From: Aquimarina acroporae
GTDB taxonomy: Bacteria; Bacteroidota; Bacteroidia; Flavobacteriales; Flavobacteriaceae
Reading direction: 5' to 3'
Assembly (NCBI RefSeq): GCF_023195925.1
Contig: NZ_JALPRE010000006.1
Location: 434,001-498,000, forward strand
Length of the DNA stretch: 64,000 nt
A program made the position numbers and the translations under genes. Each line of letters starts with the position of its first letter. Positions within the stretch are counted from its first letter, which is position 1. Under the pieces are notes generated by a model. The model saw only the letters and a list, made by a program, of their open reading frames with translations, was not told the DNA's origin and made no database searches. Positions 31,383 through 39,866 of this stretch are shown here, one piece after another.

Positions 31383-31928
31383 TTGTTACAAAGCGAGCTA
31401 ATAGAACAATGTAGGGCCAATGATCGCAGAGCGCAGATGAAACTGTACAATAAGTACTGTGATGGTATGTATTATGTGGCTTTAAGGTTCCTCAAAGATC
31501 CTTTCGAGGCAGAGGAAGCTATGCAGGAATCTTTCATTAAAGCTTTTACCAGATTACATCAATTTACAGGTGATGTAACTTTTGGCGCCTGGCTCAAGCG
31601 GATTGTAATAAATAAGAGTATAGATATGCTGAAAGCGAAGAAGATGAATATGGTTGCAATAAATGAACAAGTGATGACGACGGTAGAAGAACAAAACGAC
31701 TGGTCTGTATCAGATTCGGTAACGGTAGAAGAAGTAAAAAAAGCAATAGAGCGATTACCAGAAAAGTATAAATATGCAGTGATGCTGTTTTTGATTGAAG
31801 GGTATGACCATAATGAAATAAGTGAGATATTAGATATCACCCCGGTAGCTTCAAGAACTTTGGTGCACCGAGGAAAAAAACAACTTCAGGATCAACTAAA
31901 ACATTTGAAAGATGGCACAAGATATTAG
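31383..31928 (+). CDS. ECF-type RNA polymerase sigma factor (first module)
   Basis: A 181-residue sigma-70 family factor of the extracytoplasmic-function class. The region 2 helix is LYNKYCDGMYYVALRFLKDPFEAEEAMQESFIKAF (about 22-56); region 4 has RLPEKYKYAVMLFLIEGYDHNEISEIL (about 121-147) and a helix-turn-helix ending ASRTLVHRGKKQL. The start is a TTG: the frame has no ATG or GTG between the upstream TAA (31362) and this codon, and MLQSELIEQC is a normal N-terminus for the family. It overlaps the partner gene by 17 bases. Confidence 0.93.
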   Translation: MLQSELIEQCRANDRRAQMKLYNKYCDGMYYVALRFLKDPFEAEEAMQESFIKAFTRLHQFTGDVTFGAWLKRIVINKSIDMLKAKKMNMVAINEQVMTTVEEQNDWSVSDSVTVEEVKKAIERLPEKYKYAVMLFLIEGYDHNEISEILDITPVASRTLVHRGKKQLQDQLKHLKDGTRY

Positions 31929-32526
31929 AGAGCTATTAAAACAGGATAGAGCTTTGCCTTCAGAGAGAATAAAGGAAGGACATGAGGCTCGTTTTATGGC
32001 AAGACTTGAGAAAGAGCTTCCCAAGAAAGCGAAAAAGAGTTTCAACTATGGATGGCTTAAAATTGCTGCCAGTGTAGCAATAGTATTTACCATTTCTATG
32101 TTTACTTTCAATCAGTTTAATGGTGCCGATACCGTAAGCACAGATGTTGTTGATACTGAGACTACAGATTTGAAAGACGGAACGGTTGTTTTAACCAAAC
32201 AATCTTCTCCCTTGGCTGAGATATCTCCAGAATATGAAAAAGTAGAAAATTACTTACTAACTAGTATAAAGTTTCAACTATCTGAGATTACTGTAGATGA
32301 TAAAAACAGAGAGTTGGTTGAGAGTTTTAAAATACGTCTGAATAATTTAGATAGAGAATATCAAAATCTTAGTAAAGAACTTATCGAAGTAGGTCCTAAT
32401 ATTGAAAGTGTAGAAGCTATGATGGAGAATTTAACCTTAAGGCTTTCTCTGCTTAATAGACTGAAAGATAAACTTAAAGAATTAGAAAAAATTGAGAATG
32501 AAAGTTACGATGAAATACAAGCTTAA
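31912..32526 (+). CDS. Membrane-bound sigma-factor partner, possible anti-sigma
   Basis: A 204-residue single-pass membrane protein. A cytoplasmic part of about 45 residues (MAQDIRELLKQDRALPSERI...) leads into one TM helix (about 47-66). An extracytoplasmic domain with a helical coiled coil follows (about 110-200). It overlaps the sigma gene by 17 bases, and the size and topology fit an anti-sigma factor, but no canonical zinc anti-sigma motif is present. In Bacteroidota such genes are usual next to ECF factors. Anti-sigma function is inference. Confidence 0.7.
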   Translation: MAQDIRELLKQDRALPSERIKEGHEARFMARLEKELPKKAKKSFNYGWLKIAASVAIVFTISMFTFNQFNGADTVSTDVVDTETTDLKDGTVVLTKQSSPLAEISPEYEKVENYLLTSIKFQLSEITVDDKNRELVESFKIRLNNLDREYQNLSKELIEVGPNIESVEAMMENLTLRLSLLNRLKDKLKELEKIENESYDEIQA

Positions 32527-33883
32527 TGTTGTAGCATTGGTCATGGGTATTTCTTGTGTTGGTCTTTTTGCGCAGGACAGACAAGAAAAGCTGAATGAAA
32601 GGCTTACCGTGAATCCTGATGTTAACGTAAACCTTAATACAAGTCATACCAATATTGTTTTTGAAACATGGAACAAGAATGAAATTGGTGTAGAAGCTTA
32701 TATTGAGGGAGCTAATCTTACCGATGAAAATAGTAGAAGGATATTAGATAGTTGGCAGCTAGAAATATTGGGAGATGATCAAAACATAACCATTACGTCG
32801 GCAGCAGGTAATTTATGGACCGGAAAAGTAACAGCTTCAAATATAACTATGACTAAAGAAGAGTTACAGAGGTTGAGTCCGGCAATAGCAGATATGTTGG
32901 GGCCAATAATGGAGAATATTGCTAATAATCCTATGCCTAGTGCACTTCCAGAAAATCTTTCCAACGTAACTTTAGAAAACAAAAAATACAGCAAAGAAGA
33001 AGAGAAGTATATTCAACAATGGGAGAATCAAATACGAGAGAAGTTTAGTGAGGAAATAGAGCAAGGAAAACAAAAATTGGCCAATCAAATTCAAGGTAAG
33101 ACTACTCCTACATCGGGTCAAATGGAAATACGTCTCGATACTTGGGGAGCACAGTATGGAAAGCAAATGGAGGCGTGGGCTTCACAATTGGTAAGAGATA
33201 TTCAAAACCAGCAGAAGGGAACGGCCAATGTAACAGTATATCAATATAGTGCTCAACGATCAAATGTAGGTAACAATACTAGTAAGATTATTAAGATAAA
33301 GATGCCAAAACGGGCAAATCTGAAAATGAATGTACGACATGGTGCGGTTCAATTACCTGAACTTGCAAGTAATGTGAAGGCTTCATTATCGCACACAAAA
33401 CTTTCTGCCAATGTAGTGGAGGGAAATCAAACCTACATAAAAGCTTCGTATTCACCTGTGTATGTAAAACAATGGAACAATGGTAAGTTGGTGGTGAACT
33501 ATGTAAAGAATTGCAGAATTCAAAACGCTAAGAACCTTTTGGTAAATGCTGATTCTAGTAACATTTTTATTCAACAACTAGATGAGAATGGTGCGATTTC
33601 TGCAAGTTTCGGAATGATCACTATAGCAAATTTGGGAAAATCCTTCACTACTTTGGATCTAGCAGTACAGAATAGTGACTTTAAACTGAAATTACCTGAA
33701 TCTGCATTCAATTTGTCATATAGTGGGGCTCAAAGTTTAATATCATTACCTAAAACTCTTGAGATAAACAGTAGAAAGAATTTTGGAAATGTATTCATCA
33801 ACGGATATCAAGATACACGTAGTACAGAAAACTTAATAACTATCAATGCAAAGTATAGTGAAGTAGTATTACATAAAAATTAG
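32510..33883 (+). CDS. Exported DUF4097-like beta-strand protein of the sigma operon
   Basis: A 457-residue exported protein with a signal peptide ending GLFAQ. Its C-terminal half is repetitive beta strands (SASFGMITIANLGKSFTTLD and similar) as in DUF4097-type solenoid or adhesin-like proteins, and a helical middle (about 155-230) is rich in Gln and Glu. An in-frame ATG at 32492 exists, but MKYKLNVVALVMGIS from 32510 gives a normal signal peptide. It overlaps the anti-sigma-like gene and is probably the output or sensor of this module. Confidence 0.72.
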   Translation: MKYKLNVVALVMGISCVGLFAQDRQEKLNERLTVNPDVNVNLNTSHTNIVFETWNKNEIGVEAYIEGANLTDENSRRILDSWQLEILGDDQNITITSAAGNLWTGKVTASNITMTKEELQRLSPAIADMLGPIMENIANNPMPSALPENLSNVTLENKKYSKEEEKYIQQWENQIREKFSEEIEQGKQKLANQIQGKTTPTSGQMEIRLDTWGAQYGKQMEAWASQLVRDIQNQQKGTANVTVYQYSAQRSNVGNNTSKIIKIKMPKRANLKMNVRHGAVQLPELASNVKASLSHTKLSANVVEGNQTYIKASYSPVYVKQWNNGKLVVNYVKNCRIQNAKNLLVNADSSNIFIQQLDENGAISASFGMITIANLGKSFTTLDLAVQNSDFKLKLPESAFNLSYSGAQSLISLPKTLEINSRKNFGNVFINGYQDTRSTENLITINAKYSEVVLHKN

Positions 33884-33949: not shown

Positions 33950-34176
33950 AGTTTGTTAGCATTTTTTTTACAATTGCTTAACAATAAAAACGTACGAAGA
34001 TACGTTGCATCGTGTTTTTTGTCCTGTTAATACTGCTTTTTATCTGCTTTTTTAAGTAAACGTTGAATGTAAGATGTTGCTAATCAGAATTTTGTGTTTT
34101 ATTTTAACTTATTTTAGCTTTTTTTGTGTCTTTTATCGAAAATCAAAACCATTTGATCTAAAAGTCTGTCTTTTAG

Positions 34177-34222
34177 TTTGTTTAACAGTTATTTAATAAT
34201 ATTATTGTATGGTTAAACCGTA
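34177..34222 (+). promoter_or_regulatory. Promoter of repeat-protein gene 1 with start-site hairpin
   Basis: TTTG (34177-34180), 19 bases, TATTATTG (34200-34207) is one mismatch from the consensus. TATGGT-TAA-ACCGTA (34208-34222) forms an inverted repeat at the expected start of transcription. Spacing, boxes and hairpin are all repeated upstream of the paralogue at 39231, which supports function. Confidence 0.7.
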
Positions 34223-34260: not shown

Positions 34261-34899
34261 ATGAAATTAATTACATGTTTTTTTGGCTTGCTTTTATTTA
34301 TCAACAGTTATGCTGGTGATGGAGAAAAATTAGAAGTGGAGCAAGATGGACTTGTTGTTGTGGTATTAGATTTTGAAGAAGGAGATAAGATCAAATTATT
34401 CGAGATCGAAACAGGAGATCATGTTTTGTCAAAAACTCATGGTCAGATAGATTTAAGTCAATTACCAATAGGGGCATATTTGTTAGAAAATAACGAAGGA
34501 AGGTCAATTGTAATTGAGCGTTTAGAAGAAGGGTTAAATGTTGATGGTGCTATTACTGCAATACACAATGATTTTCTTTTAGAAAGAGATAGCAAACGAG
34601 TGATGATGCCTGCAGAAATAGATGTAGAACAAGAATATATGCATTATTATGATAATGCAGAAACCAATCTTTTAGCTATAGAGCGAGAAGGTGATATGAT
34701 TACCGTTGTTGATTTTGAAGAAGGTGATAAAATCAAGTTATTTGAAGTGAAAAATACAGTACATATTTTAACAAAGACTTCTAATTTTGTTGATCTTAGT
34801 CAGTTACCAGCTGGAGTTTATGTTTTAGAGAACAGTAAAGGGGACTCTGTAGTTGTAGAAAAGTTTTATGACAAGGATCAAGTAGCAGACATGCATTAA
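34261..34899 (+). CDS. Secreted protein with two T9SS-sorting-like modules (paralogue 1)
   Basis: A 212-residue exported acidic protein. A signal peptide (1 to about 18) is followed by two repeats of about 66 residues (24-89 and 138-203) joined by a roughly 48-residue acidic linker. Each repeat contains DFEEGDKIKLFE and DLSQLPxGxYxLEN, ending in a Val-rich strand (SIVIERLEE, SVVVEKFYD). The DLSxLPxGxYxL...VVVEK pattern closely resembles the end of a type A type IX secretion C-terminal sorting domain, but with no cargo and no PNP start motif. Function is unknown; the paralogue is at 39231-39866. Confidence 0.85.
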   Translation: MKLITCFFGLLLFINSYAGDGEKLEVEQDGLVVVVLDFEEGDKIKLFEIETGDHVLSKTHGQIDLSQLPIGAYLLENNEGRSIVIERLEEGLNVDGAITAIHNDFLLERDSKRVMMPAEIDVEQEYMHYYDNAETNLLAIEREGDMITVVDFEEGDKIKLFEVKNTVHILTKTSNFVDLSQLPAGVYVLENSKGDSVVVEKFYDKDQVADMH

Positions 34900-34926
34900 A
34901 TAATATTCGCCATAATATTTTTATAG

Positions 34927-34954
34927 CCTACCTGGAAACGGGTAGGTTTTTTTT
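34927..34954 (+). terminator. Terminator of repeat-protein gene 1
   Basis: CCTACC (34927-34932) pairs with GGTAGG (34941-34946) across an 8-base loop and is followed by eight T. Confidence 0.9.
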
Positions 34955-35114
34955 ATTCTGTAATTCTGTGCTGGAAAAGTATAGATATGTTTTTAAGCGT
35001 TTTAGTATAGTTCTGGGATCTCTTTATTTTACTTAAAGTAGTGTTTCGTATTGATATACTTGTTTTTAATTTAAAAGATGAATTCTAAAAAAAATATGAA
35101 GATAATATGGATAC

Positions 35115-35140
35115 AAAAAAAGAGGTGCATAAAGCACCTC
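35115..35140 (-). terminator. Terminator of the DUF6249-like gene
   Basis: On the minus strand GAGGTGC-TTTAT-GCACCTC (35140 down to 35122) is followed by seven T. Confidence 0.9.
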
Positions 35141-35163
35141 GATGGTTTGTACTAAAGATAGAT

Positions 35164-35511
35164 TTATTTGTCTAAATTTTTGGTCATGTTAAATCCAACA
35201 AATAATCCTGCGCCGGCCATTAGGAATATAGTTCCTGGTTCAGCAATATGGTCTTTAACGCCAATTACTTCAGTTAATATTCCTGCCAAGAAAATGCCAA
35301 GTCCAATTCCCATTAATAAAAGAGATAAGTTTAGTACAAGAACTTTCCAAATAGGAGTAACTCTTTTTTCCTTACTGCTATAAAAAATAGAAGCGTCTGC
35401 ACCTTTTTCAATAAGAGCCATACGTTCTTTGTTTCTTGCAGAAATGAATAGGTAATAGATTCCGAAAAGAACTCCAAAAATAGCAGGTAAAATAATTACT
35501 TCAGATCCCAT
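35164..35511 (-). CDS. DUF6249-like membrane protein
   Basis: A 115-residue protein with three hydrophobic helices (about 5-22, 54-76 and 92-110). The first loop contains ARNKERMALIEKGADASIF, a segment typical of DUF6249-type membrane proteins of Bacteroidota. These commonly lie beside ECF sigma genes, as here: the gene is divergent from the second sigma factor, with 149 bases between. It may be a target or a modulator of that factor. Function is unknown. Confidence 0.72.
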   Translation of the reverse strand: MGSEVIILPAIFGVLFGIYYLFISARNKERMALIEKGADASIFYSSKEKRVTPIWKVLVLNLSLLLMGIGLGIFLAGILTEVIGVKDHIAEPGTIFLMAGAGLFVGFNMTKNLDK

Positions 35512-35551
35512 GTTATAAATTTTTATAGGTTAATACTGTTCGTTTTTCTTC

Positions 35552-35653
35552 TATGACGATAGATAGTTTTGGTTGGTTACAAAAAAGTGTAAAAATATAT
35601 TTTGTAATTTTTGGAGAGAAATGTGTAACCATTTTCAATTTGTGATCGTCATA
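35552..35653. repeat. Separated 9-bp inverted repeat around the second ECF promoter region
   Basis: TATGACGAT (35552-35560) and ATCGTCATA (35645-35653) are perfect inverted copies, 84 bases apart, within the 149-base divergent interval. They bracket the likely promoter of the sigma gene and could be operators or form a long-range stem in the leader. Confidence 0.4.
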
Positions 35654-35660
35654 CCCGTAA

Positions 35661-36248
35661 ATGAACCATCAACCAGATCAATATTACATAGATCAAGTAT
35701 TAGAAGGAAATGTGAATGCGTTTTCTGTACTTGTAGAGAAATACCAAAGTTTGGTATATACCGTTGTATATCGAGTGGTTAAAAATAAAGAAATAGCAGA
35801 GGAGGTAGCTCAAGATACTTTTGTAAAGGCCTTTAGGTCGTTACAAAAATATAGAGGAGAAGCCAAGTTCTCTACGTGGTTATATACCATAGCATATAGA
35901 AAAAGTTTGGATGCGATTAAATCTAACAAGCGTATAATGACTTCAGAATTAATAGAAGAGATTAATGAGGGAGAAATAGAATTAGTTACAGATGCACTTA
36001 ATTATTTACAGGTCAAAGAAAGAAAACAAATAATAGCAGATAGTATTTTAAAGTTGCCTGAAGAGGAAGCGGCTATAGTTACACTTTATTATTTTGATGA
36101 AAAAAGTATAAAAGAAATTGTCGAAATCATTGGTTTATCACAAGATAATGTGAAAATTAAACTATATCGAAGTAGAAAAAAGCTATATTCGATATTGAAA
36201 AATTACATTTCGCCAGAAATCAGTAGTAAAAATGGAACAGCGATTTAG
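35661..36248 (+). CDS. ECF-type RNA polymerase sigma factor (second module)
   Basis: A 195-residue sigma-70 family ECF factor. Region 2 includes VLVEKYQSLVYTVVYRVVKNKEIAEEVAQDTFVKAF (about 20-55) and FSTWLYTIAYRKSLD. Region 4 includes LPEEEAAIVTLYYFDEKSIKEI and a helix-turn-helix ending NVKIKLYRSRKKL. The start ATG follows an in-frame gap and MNHQPDQYYIDQVLEG is a normal N-terminus. It overlaps its membrane partner by 17 bases. Confidence 0.93.
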   Translation: MNHQPDQYYIDQVLEGNVNAFSVLVEKYQSLVYTVVYRVVKNKEIAEEVAQDTFVKAFRSLQKYRGEAKFSTWLYTIAYRKSLDAIKSNKRIMTSELIEEINEGEIELVTDALNYLQVKERKQIIADSILKLPEEEAAIVTLYYFDEKSIKEIVEIIGLSQDNVKIKLYRSRKKLYSILKNYISPEISSKNGTAI

Positions 36249-36624
36249 AGATATTCAAAAATTAGTTAAAGAAGCTGGTTTAGAAAACCCTTCTCCTAGT
36301 TTTCTTAGTAATGTGATGAACCAAGTAGAAACTTCTGTTTCAAAAGATACTATAGTATATAAACCTCTTATCTCCAAAAAGGGATGGATAATAGTCTTAC
36401 TTACTGTTTCGGTTCTTATTGGAGCTTTGTTTCTGTTGTATAACGGCGAATCAGTTTTCAATAAAGTAAACTTTCCTTTTGATTATTTTATCAAATTTGA
36501 AAATCCGCTATCAGGCATCAATTTTACAAAAACCACTACCTACGCGATTGTTTTTTTAGCACTATTGTTTTTTGTGCAAATAGGATTCCTTAAAAAGAGA
36601 ATAGATAAGAATTTTGCGGTATAA
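36232..36624 (+). CDS. Two-TM partner of the second sigma factor, possible anti-sigma
   Basis: A 130-residue protein with a cytoplasmic N-terminus of about 45 residues (MEQRFRDIQKLVKEAGLENPSPSFLSNVM...) and two TM helices (about 48-69 and 101-120). The overlap of 17 bases with the sigma gene implies translational coupling. Its topology would let the N-terminal part bind the sigma factor at the membrane. No canonical anti-sigma motif is visible, so the role rests on context. Confidence 0.7.
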   Translation: MEQRFRDIQKLVKEAGLENPSPSFLSNVMNQVETSVSKDTIVYKPLISKKGWIIVLLTVSVLIGALFLLYNGESVFNKVNFPFDYFIKFENPLSGINFTKTTTYAIVFLALLFFVQIGFLKKRIDKNFAV

Positions 36625-36713
36625 AACATATTATGGTGTCATATCGTTAAAATATTTTTAAAACTGCAATACATTCTCTATTTTACATAAGGAATTAATT
36701 AAGCAAACTTAGT

Positions 36714-38042
36714 ATGCAAAAAAGGATATGTGTTATTGGGGCAGGACCAAGTGGTATAACTGCGCTTAAAAATCTAAAAGACAAAAACCTTGATGTAGTA
36801 TGTTATGATCGTAATAATGAAGTAGGAGGTAATTGGATTTATTCAGAAAATGAAAGCCATTCTAGTGTTTTCGACACTACACATATTATAAGTTCTAAAA
36901 CGCTATCCCAATACGAAGATTTTACATTTGAAGATTTTGATCCTACCGTAGCAGATTACCCTTCTCATGATGAATTGAGAAGATATTTTCAGGAATATGC
37001 AAAACATTTTGGTTTGTATACTCATATAGAGTTTAACACGGTTGTGCAAAATTGCAAAAGAGTAGCGAAGAATAAATGGGAAGTTACGATCTTACAAAAT
37101 AACAAAGAAGTTGTAGAGACCTTTACTGATCTGGTGGTTTGTAATGGACATCACTCTGTTCCAAGAATGCCAGAATATCCTGGTACTTTTGATGGGGCAT
37201 TTATTCATTCACATAATTATAAAAAGGCTGCGCCTTTTGCTAATCAAAGAGTATTGGTCATTGGGGGCGGTAACTCTGCATGCGATGTGGCGGTAGAAAC
37301 AAGTAGAGTAAGTGCAAAAACCAGTATTAGTTGGCGAAGAGGATATCGAATTATACCCAAATTCTTTTTTGGAATACCTTCAGATATAGTTGGTGCAAGA
37401 TCTGCATGGCTACCGGTAAAAATAAGAAGTTGGCTTAATGACAAATTGCTAAACATTATGTTGGGCAAAAATAAACTATATGGCTTGCAAGAGGTGAAGA
37501 CAAAGTTTGGAGAAACGCACCCAACAATAAACGATGAATTACTCTATAAGATTCGACATGGTAAAGTTCATCCTAAAGTCGATATAGAAAAATTAGAAGG
37601 AGAGGTTGTACATTTTAAAGATGGGACTACAGAGCATGTAGATGTTATTATTGCCTGTACAGGATATGTTCTTAAGCATTCCTTTTTTGATGAATCATTT
37701 GTAGACTATAGCGATGGTCCTGTTCCGTTATATTTAAAAATGTTTCACCCAGAGTATCACGATTTGTTTTTTGTAGGGATGTTCCAGCCTTTGGGCTGTA
37801 TTTGGCCTGGCTCGGAGTTACAAAGTAAAATTTTGGCCAATTATTTAGCAGGAGATTGGCGAATGCCTTCAAACATTAAAAAATTATGTGAAAGAGAAGT
37901 GACACATCCACATTATAAGCAAATAAATACTCCTAGGCACACTATTACAGTTGATTATCATATTTTTAGAAAAGCTCTTTTAAAACAATTACCCAAACAA
38001 TGGGTGTCTAAAGAACCTGTGGTTATGGATCAAAGTGCATAA
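36714..38042 (+). CDS. Flavin-containing (class B) monooxygenase
   Basis: A 442-residue NAD(P)H- and FAD-dependent oxygenase. The FAD-binding Rossmann motif is GAGPSG (9-14). The FMO signature FDGAFIHSHNYK (159-170) is complete, and the NADPH-binding GGGNSA is at 184-189. These enzymes oxygenate nucleophilic N or S atoms, for example trimethylamine; substrate here is unknown. It is monocistronic and cytoplasmic, lying between the second sigma module and an M23 peptidase gene. Confidence 0.9.
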   Translation: MQKRICVIGAGPSGITALKNLKDKNLDVVCYDRNNEVGGNWIYSENESHSSVFDTTHIISSKTLSQYEDFTFEDFDPTVADYPSHDELRRYFQEYAKHFGLYTHIEFNTVVQNCKRVAKNKWEVTILQNNKEVVETFTDLVVCNGHHSVPRMPEYPGTFDGAFIHSHNYKKAAPFANQRVLVIGGGNSACDVAVETSRVSAKTSISWRRGYRIIPKFFFGIPSDIVGARSAWLPVKIRSWLNDKLLNIMLGKNKLYGLQEVKTKFGETHPTINDELLYKIRHGKVHPKVDIEKLEGEVVHFKDGTTEHVDVIIACTGYVLKHSFFDESFVDYSDGPVPLYLKMFHPEYHDLFFVGMFQPLGCIWPGSELQSKILANYLAGDWRMPSNIKKLCEREVTHPHYKQINTPRHTITVDYHIFRKALLKQLPKQWVSKEPVVMDQSA

Positions 38043-38122
38043 CTATAAAGTTTGAAGTTATTCATGCAAAGCTTTTTTTATATTTACTGTCAGTTTCGTA
38101 ATGTTTAGTTCATATTGTGTCA

Positions 38123-38812
38123 ATGACAGATTTTAATTTTTCTAAATTCGTAGAGGAGTTGTCCTCAGATTTTATTCCGGTAGTATCCTCTAAATTCTCT
38201 AAAGAACAATATATCCCCATAGATTTATCTGAATCTAATGTAAGCCTAGATACTTTTGATGTGTCTTCTTCTAAAGCATTTGAGGCTTATGTAGTTGATT
38301 ATCTTAATAAGAATAATGCCAAAGTGGCCTATGGGGGATATCATGAACCCAGAGGTATTTATAGACGCAGTAAGCATTTTAATGACGGTGACATTGCAGA
38401 GGAACGTAATATTCATCTAGGCCTAGATCTTTGGTGTGATGCAGGTACAGAAATACTCTCTCCATTGGATGGAGAAATACATAGTTTTAAAAATAATAAC
38501 AACTATGGCGATTACGGGCCTACCATTATATTAAAACACCATATTAGAGGAGTTGAGTTCTACACGCTTTATGGTCATTTAAGTACAGCATCTATTTCAG
38601 GATTAAATATGGGAGATGTTGTAAAGGCTGGTGATGTTATTGCAATACTTGGAGATGCTTCGGTAAATGGAGATTATGCTCCACATCTGCATTTTCAAAT
38701 TATAAAAGATTTAGAAGGTAATGTAGGCGATTATCCCGGGGTTTCTAGTAGAGAGGAGTTGAATAAATATAAATATAACTGCCCTAATCCTAATTTACTT
38801 CTTAATATCTAA
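38123..38812 (+). CDS. M23-family metallopeptidase without a signal peptide
   Basis: A LytM/M23 zinc endopeptidase fold of 229 residues. The ligands are His98 and Asp102 in HLGLD and the pair in PHLH (188-190), with His152 in YGHLS as the catalytic partner. The N-terminal 70 residues are helical and unfamiliar. There is no signal peptide or TM helix. A GTG two codons upstream (38117) is an alternative start, but neither start gives an export signal. The sequence around GGYHEPRGIYRRSKHF resembles the M23 domains fused to class III aminotransferases rather than cell-wall hydrolases. Confidence 0.82.
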   Translation: MTDFNFSKFVEELSSDFIPVVSSKFSKEQYIPIDLSESNVSLDTFDVSSSKAFEAYVVDYLNKNNAKVAYGGYHEPRGIYRRSKHFNDGDIAEERNIHLGLDLWCDAGTEILSPLDGEIHSFKNNNNYGDYGPTIILKHHIRGVEFYTLYGHLSTASISGLNMGDVVKAGDVIAILGDASVNGDYAPHLHFQIIKDLEGNVGDYPGVSSREELNKYKYNCPNPNLLLNI

Positions 38813-39230
38813 GTTTATTCATTTAATTGGTGACCTTTACTCACATACGCAGAGCCTCTGCAATACATAAAAGTTATCGTATCCAATTGCACCCTTAGTA
38901 AAACAATGGTAATCAATAGACATTTTTTGAAAGATGCAATTGGTTTCTTAGATAGTTTCTTTTAGATATTACCTTGAAATTAAGGGGATTAAGGTGTCAG
39001 AATAACTGTTTTTTGTGTTTTTAATCGATTCATAGTTGCCTTTTAACCTAAACTTAAATTTTTAAAGCATTGATAATCAATGTTTTATGTTTTATTATTT
39101 GCATTTTTGGTATTTTAACGAAAATTAACAGGTTTTGGTCTAAAAGACTGATAATTAGTTGGTAGCATAATTATTTAATCCTATCATTGTATGGTGAAAC
39201 CGTAGTTTTACAATCAAAAAGCCCCAAATT
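38813..39230. other. 418-base interval with a long-range inverted repeat and the paralogue promoter
   Basis: It holds a GCAGA/TCTGC hairpin (about 38850-38862) just after the M23 gene. CCAATTGCA (38883-38891) and TGCAATTGG (38935-38943) are perfect inverted copies 43 bases apart. From about 39090 a block resembles the one upstream of the gene at 34261, with TCTAAAAGACTG at 39139-39150 and a promoter at 39159-39189. No ORF was recognised. Confidence 0.65.
39159..39204 (+). promoter_or_regulatory. Promoter of repeat-protein gene 2 with start-site hairpin
   Basis: TTGG (39159-39162), 19 bases, TATCATTG (39182-39189), then the inverted repeat TATGGT-GAA-ACCGTA (39190-39204). All distances match those upstream of the paralogue, including 21 bases between the TCTAAAAGnCTG motif's last base and the position corresponding to the next box region. 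Confidence 0.68.
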
Positions 39231-39866
39231 ATGAAAGCGACTACACTATTAATTACACTATTTTTATCGGTATCGATTTTTGGTATGGAGGATGATAATC
39301 TTACCATTCAACAAGAAGGACTTATTATCGAAGTTGTAGATTTTGAAGAAGGAGATAAGTTAAAGTTGTTCGAAGTTGAAACAGGTGATCATATTTTATC
39401 TAAATCTTATTCTCGTATCGATCTTAGTCAATTACCAATCGGATCTTATTTATTAGAAAACAATAGAGGAAAGTCTATCGTTATCGATCGTCTTGAAGAA
39501 GAATTAATGATTGATGGAGCTGTTTTTGCTCAGGAAGAAAACTTTTTGGTAGAAGATGCCGAAATGAGTAATGAGGTAGTAAATGAAAATACCGAAGAGG
39601 AGTTCGTAGCACAATATCTTAACCCACAGAAGAATGTATTAGATATTCAGAGAGAGGGAGATGTTATTACTGTTGTAGATTTTGCAGAAGGAGATAAATT
39701 AAAATTATTTGAAGTTAAAGATACGGTACATGTTTTATCTAAAACTACAAATGTGATCGACTTAAGTCAATTACCGGTAGGAGTTTACCTATTAGAAAAC
39801 AGTAATGGGGATGCAGTAGTTGTAGAGAAATATACAGAAACTCAAAATAATATTACAGACCTATAG
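39231..39866 (+). CDS. Secreted protein with two T9SS-sorting-like modules (paralogue 2)
   Basis: A 211-residue acidic exported protein, paralogue of the one at 34261-34899. A signal peptide (1 to about 18) precedes repeats at 24-89 and 137-202, separated by an acidic linker that is much less conserved. Repeat cores are DFEEGDKLKLFE, DFAEGDKLKLFE and DLSQLPxGxYLLEN. First repeats of the two proteins are closer to each other than to the second repeats, so the internal duplication came before the gene duplication. No catalytic motif is visible. A structural or surface role is likely but unproven. Confidence 0.85.
   Translation: MKATTLLITLFLSVSIFGMEDDNLTIQQEGLIIEVVDFEEGDKLKLFEVETGDHILSKSYSRIDLSQLPIGSYLLENNRGKSIVIDRLEEELMIDGAVFAQEENFLVEDAEMSNEVVNENTEEEFVAQYLNPQKNVLDIQREGDVITVVDFAEGDKLKLFEVKDTVHVLSKTTNVIDLSQLPVGVYLLENSNGDAVVVEKYTETQNNITDL

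Follow-up and report, generated by a model that had tools for sequence, protein, structure and literature searches.

What does a bacterium do with an exported protein that is built from little but two copies of what looks like a secretion sorting domain? The question is raised by two paralogous genes, A and B, in a 64,000-nt stretch of the Aquimarina acroporae genome (assembly GCF_023195925.1, contig NZ_JALPRE010000006.1, positions 434,001–498,000, forward strand; hereafter the window). An earlier note on this DNA had described their products as a signal peptide followed by two modules resembling the type A C-terminal sorting domains (CTDs) of the type IX secretion system (T9SS), with no cargo. 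Our analysis bears out this architecture in frames of 212 and 211 residues, each with a hydrophobic, signal-like N-terminus, domain searches recognised no cargo, and we find the resemblance to type A sorting domains to be genuine. The reading we favour, which we hold to be evenly poised between right and wrong, is that a former sorting domain has become an acidic binding protein of the cell envelope.

The resemblance is carried by the Pfam model PF18962, by a profile of CTDs from the same genome and by the predicted fold. Scored over the whole protein, PF18962 matches A at 29.1 bits and B at 32.5 bits, above its cut-off of 27. When the genome is searched by stretch, module 2 reaches 18.8 bits in A and 22.8 in B, below the cut-off, because the whole-protein score sums two stretches (the best being residues 147–202 in A, within module 2, and 131–200 in B). 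Among 28 members aligned from across the genus, PF18962 is the only family matched by all at E 0.01; TIGR04183 is matched by 22 and DUF3244 (PF11589) by none, and PF16967 and PF17802 match the family weakly. The earlier note had named TIGR04183 as a model to be compared with the repeats, and module 2 is indeed matched, but its scores of 21.3 bits in A and 16.3 in B lie under the cut-off of 23. Single-module paralogues match PF18962 no better than E 0.067 (two of four). Our comparison set of 30 distinct sorting domains comes from 33 loci of the A. acroporae genome, near-copies removed; these loci were the top scorers in two genome searches that had listed 72 and 68 places. The profile of the 30 domains scores A at 28.4 and B at 26.4 bits, none of 2000 shuffled copies exceeding 7.6, and a profile comparison with the same set gives 94.7% for module 2 and 89.8% for module 1, with column-shuffled scores below half. 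A canonical CTD from another genus aligns by BLASTP with module 2 of B over 72 residues (31 bits, E 2e-4 for a database of the window's open reading frames (ORFs) only), and three other CTD-bearing proteins from other-genus loci gave no BLASTP match to A or B at E 0.1.

The predicted fold agrees with the sandwich expected of a sorting domain. Module 1 of A, modelled alone by AlphaFold over residues 20–91, is a seven-strand sandwich with a mean pLDDT of 90.2, and module 2 is predicted to be a seven-strand immunoglobulin (Ig)-like β-sandwich. The top four structural neighbours of the A modules are DUF3244 and T9SS CTD structures: the DUF3244 entries 3SD2 and 3D33 come first for both module models, with the CTDs tied within about 1 Z, and Foldseek likewise places 3SD2 and 3D33 first for module 1. 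A third DUF3244 structure, 4G5A, also ranks high among the structural matches. Sequence searches of solved structures with A and with the A2, A3 and A5 profiles returned weak matches only, the best being to the C-terminal end of a lipase (PDB ID: 7PZJ; E 0.0034).

A and B align globally with a score of 597, the maximum among 200 shuffles being 20. The core DFEEGDK had been reported for every repeat, but module 2 of B has DFAEGDK instead. Over 68 columns the first modules of A and B share 46 identities and the second modules 50, while the two modules share 35 within A and 39 within B; the claim that the first repeats are the more alike across the paralogues is thus reversed. The order of events that had been drawn from it, with the internal duplication earliest, holds nonetheless in a tree of 131 modules (63 columns, midpoint root, bootstrap not fully settled). 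All 61 second-module rows fall on one side of a branch with support 94/82, opposite the first-module and single-module rows, and this separation indicates that the duplication within the gene preceded that of the gene. Single-module rows, 11 in number, cluster together (support 96/90), and B-type modules are nested among A-type ones. B is probably a later local copy of A. Across five pairs the ratio of nonsynonymous to synonymous substitution rates (dN/dS) is 0.05–0.17, the values for two pairs being rough because dS is 1.6–2.1, and by these sequence comparisons the family is under purifying selection.

If module 2 descends from a sorting domain, does it still look like a sorting signal? We compared the 30 CTDs, whose selection as top scorers favours canonical motifs, with a homologue set of 76 rows, comprising 62 distinct two-module proteins, 13 short ones (two of them cut by the end of the locus) and one cargo protein that was set aside. 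The Pro-Asn-Pro (PNP) motif precedes 27 of the 30 CTDs and none of the 62 second modules, in keeping with its reported absence from A and B, where the sequence YLNPQKNVLDI in B can be read as a possible remnant. The glycine of the b3–b4 loop, present in 30/30 CTDs, is missing in 59/62 second modules, including those of A and B; the first modules carry a glycine in all 62, one residue beyond the CTD position. In RgpB this loop glycine is important for secretion (PMC11285876, section 2.3). A near-invariant lysine at the C-terminus of sorting domains is described as contacting PorV (PMC10994853); by reading of the strings, 61 of 62 second modules keep a lysine near the C-terminus, the exception being L095:1341. 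Per 65 residues, second modules have a mean net charge of −4.2, first modules one of −5.9 and the CTDs one of +4.1 (range 0 to 9). For mature proteins of the two-module form the mean is −27 (range −33 to −17), and no other product of the window's 64 ORFs is as acidic as A or B. A tail of 10–14 residues follows the last strand in 55 of the 61 proteins measured, the other six having been mis-parsed. Since published mutants tolerate an extended C-terminus (PMC11285876, section 2.2), we dropped this tail as proof against secretion. Taken as a whole, the sequence evidence leans against a working sorting signal in module 2.

As far as sampled, the family is confined to Aquimarina. With a threshold of E 1e-5, 52 of the 66 genomes of the genus have it, as do 50 of the 58 well-completed ones, leaving eight of the latter without it, and by match length three of the 52 positive genomes (G008, G013 and G656) hold the single-module form only. 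No member was found beyond Aquimarina in samples of 299 genomes of the host family and 296 of the phylum, for each of which the best candidates per genome, at most ten, were scored: the two genomes matched in the family sample (E 1e-6) are both Aquimarina, and the one matched in the phylum sample is the window's own. Among named family loci, 33 of 34 are from Aquimarina and the remaining one is a metagenome-assembled genome labelled Bacteroidia bacterium.

The genes lie in a neighbourhood that is itself widely conserved. At 25 of 28 Aquimarina loci, picked from family matches, a family member lies 3′ of the 463-residue protein encoded alongside an extracytoplasmic function (ECF) sigma factor; in L057 five ORFs intervene. 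The 463-residue protein matches no Pfam model at E 0.01 and has relatives in 98 of 149 Flavobacteriaceae genomes. At all 20 loci examined in other genera, the gene following it is not recognisably A-like, and an A-like gene as an old component of this operon was rejected on that count. The gene in that position at L178 matches A weakly (E 0.044, 25% over 71 of 243 aa), which we take as chance; L173 also gives a weak match (E 0.048), and the match at L170 comes from another place in the locus, where a cargo protein bears a normal CTD. Because A accompanies the 463-residue gene in Aquimarina and not in other genera, it was probably added to a pre-existing conserved neighbourhood. In several species a single-module paralogue of about 99 residues stands directly 5′ of A (for example L088:672-971, L091:687-986, L092:697-996 and L095:676-978) and is basic, with a net charge of +3 to +8 in nine rows; in G008 and G013 the single-module proteins are instead acidic (−5 and −9).

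Two boxes, TT[GA]T[AG][TCA]GG and [GA]TCTAAAA, are found within 150 nt 5′ of all 62 two-module genes. The former occurs in 1.75% of random windows, but as the 62 genes are related, the count reflects conservation and should not be read as so many separate events. In the genome there are ten occurrences of the palindrome TAYGGTNNAACCRTAA at nine sites, A's included, and none of its reversed pattern; B's copy is mismatched at the last base, and a looser pattern has 12 occurrences vs 6 for the control. Comparison of upstream regions did not find the palindrome 5′ of the 99-residue paralogue genes. Several of the TACGGTAAAACCGTAA-like sites (L196–L205) precede genes whose products, judged by eye, look exported, and the sites make up a candidate regulon under a putative regulator. 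We consider the linked ECF sigma factor an unlikely regulator of A and B, because in most of the loci read the region 5′ of the sigma gene itself has another conserved element, TTTGCAACA-N16-CGTCTWTA (judged by eye; L062 is among the exceptions), and inspection showed no copy of it 5′ of A or B.

The account we prefer draws on the sequence relationship, the predicted fold, the order of duplications, the genus-wide conservation, the charge and the upstream elements. A and B would be Sec-exported, soluble and strongly acidic proteins of two Ig-like β-sandwich modules, a fold they would have in common with T9SS type A sorting domains and DUF3244 proteins. A single ancestral module would have duplicated once within the gene, in or shortly before Aquimarina, and local copying of the gene with its upstream region would then have produced B. 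Having ceased to act as sorting signals, the proteins would bind or shield in the periplasm or at the cell surface, their acidic surface engaging a cationic partner or divalent ions, and a regulator reading the TACGGTAAAACCGTA palindrome would control them together with several other exported proteins. This would be an apparent reuse of a secretion address label, duplicated, acidified and kept by selection across a genus amid conserved neighbours.

The main rival is that A and B are miniature T9SS cargo, with module 2 a working type A signal, recognised by PorV/SprA and cut by PorU, that delivers module 1 and the linker. In its favour, SprA is present in the genome (2763 bits) and 60 of 72 listed PF18962 matches exceed the cut-off; module 2 outscores module 1 against CTDs, the C-terminal lysine is retained, and the tolerance of published mutants for C-terminal extensions (PMC11285876, section 2.2) blunts the objection from the tail. 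Set against this are the lack of PNP, the loss of the loop glycine in nearly all second modules, the inverted charge, the sub-cut-off TIGR04183 scores of A and B and the tail itself, and we consider delivery as cargo unlikely while giving it real weight. That the modules might instead form a sandwich family of separate origin, DUF3244-like or of another Ig-like type, resembling sorting domains in fold and not in descent, is suggested by the lead of 3SD2 and 3D33 over the tied CTDs for both models and in Foldseek for module 1, by the weak PF16967 and PF17802 matches and by the fact that, of four CTD-bearing proteins from loci of other genera, only one finds A or B by BLASTP at E 0.1. We judge separate ancestry improbable, since PF18962 alone matches all 28 genus members and DUF3244 none, the canonical CTD aligns with module 2 of B, and DUF3244 and CTDs may be kin, both being matched by the L184 family described below.

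Free modules could also act on the secretion system itself. As decoys or regulators they would bind PorV/SprA or the basic CTDs of cargo and so tune secretion, an idea that fits the predicted fold and the conserved lysine, as in PorV ligands, the charge opposite to that of cargo CTDs and a genome rich in CTD cargoes. Against it, the family is absent from eight well-completed Aquimarina genomes, and the Bacteroides hosts of the DUF3244 relatives are not known to have a T9SS. We therefore regard a decoy role as highly improbable. More speculative still is a version in which the charge-inverted proteins work in the periplasm as a chaperone of secretion, or a brake on it, peculiar to the genus: they would bind basic cargo CTDs or the PorV/SprA site, and the basic 99-residue paralogue beside A would oppose them in some species. 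Were a link to the T9SS true, A and B would be the first free CTD homologues known to us to act on it. The features of the locus are located in the table.

Features of the A and B locus (positions in the window)
Feature	Position	Strand	Evidence
Gene A, 212-aa exported protein: signal peptide and two CTD-like modules	34261..34899	+	ORF, PF18962, alignment
A signal peptide, residues ~1-18, cleavage site inferred by eye	34261..34314	+	sequence
A module 1, residues 24-88, predicted seven-strand β-sandwich	34330..34524	+	AlphaFold, VIA-align
A module 2, residues 136-202, predicted seven-strand β-sandwich	34666..34866	+	PF18962, predicted fold
Palindromic element TTGTATGGTTAAACCGTA 5′ of A	34205..34222	+	upstream comparison
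Second conserved box GATCTAAAAGTCTG 5′ of A	34155..34168	+	upstream comparison
Gene B, 211-aa paralogue of A	39231..39866	+	ORF, PF18962, alignment
B signal peptide, residues ~1-18, cleavage site inferred by eye	39231..39284	+	sequence
B module 1, residues 24-88	39300..39494	+	alignment
B module 2, residues 135-201	39633..39833	+	PF18962, alignment
Palindromic element TTGTATGGTGAAACCGTA 5′ of B	39187..39204	+	upstream comparison
Second conserved box GGTCTAAAAGACTG 5′ of B	39137..39150	+	upstream comparison
ECF sigma factor, anti-sigma-like protein and 463-aa protein of unknown family, 5′ of A	31383..33883	+	neighbour context, outside module family

How do A and B compare with known systems? 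Literature searches on DUF3244 and on Aquimarina type IX secretion turned up nothing on this family. The earlier note's remark that it knew of no described family of this kind is not upheld. DUF3244 proteins (PF11589; PDB ID: 3SD2, 3D33 and 4G5A) are, like A and B, free-standing Ig-like sandwiches without cargo, and the native proteins presumably carry a signal peptide; their solved chains are single modules of 86–99 residues where A and B have two, and their Pfam model does not recognise the A/B family. With T9SS type A CTDs, A and B share the whole-protein PF18962 match, seven predicted strands, the DLSxLPxGxY core and the C-terminal lysine. They differ in having no recognised cargo and two copies, in lacking PNP and in being acidic, and their module 2 has lost the loop glycine and scores below the cut-offs of TIGR04183 and, by single stretch, of PF18962.

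The closest parallel in architecture is L184/L208, a protein of 195 aa from the same genome in which a signal peptide precedes two CTD-like modules without cargo, at a length of about 200 residues like that of A and B. Its relatives occur in 39 of 100 Flavobacteriaceae genomes, the A. acroporae genome included, with up to six matches per genome. In an alignment of 28 members, DUF3244 is matched by 22 and Por_Secre_tail by 15 (E 0.01), and because this two-module family matches both, DUF3244 and CTDs may themselves be related. Unlike the A/B family, it is divergent, widespread and near neutral (mature mean +0.25), with an acidic end of −4 in L184, and L184 passes the TIGR04183 cut-off (25 vs 23) where A and B do not. 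The A/B profile compares with that of the L184 family at 84% over 75 columns, signal peptide included; module 1 alone compares with L184 module 1 at 83% over 17 columns and with its module 2 at 1.3%, so that kinship by sequence is only suggestive. Genes of this DUF3244-like, two-module type can be clustered, with five matches within ~10 kb at L212 (G069) and six, five of them within ~5 kb, at L217 (G139).

Smaller proteins of the same genome approach the bare domain. L180 (115 aa) and L183 (116 aa) have a signal-like start, one CTD and little else; both differ from A and B in having one module, and L180 retains PNP and a CTD-like end. Such small proteins of signal peptide and one sorting domain are located at L180:968-1315, L183:976-1326 and L182:807-1244, and a 76-residue sorting-domain frame without an obvious signal peptide (L179:974-1204) adjoins a response-regulator-like gene. 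For annotators, a PF18962 match need not mean T9SS cargo, as the several small, near-domain-only proteins of this genome illustrate. Given how widespread the L184 family is and that it matches DUF3244 and Por_Secre_tail, small exported proteins made of this fold alone are an already known, if little-studied, kind, and A and B are a genus-restricted version of cargo-free paired sorting-domain-fold proteins.
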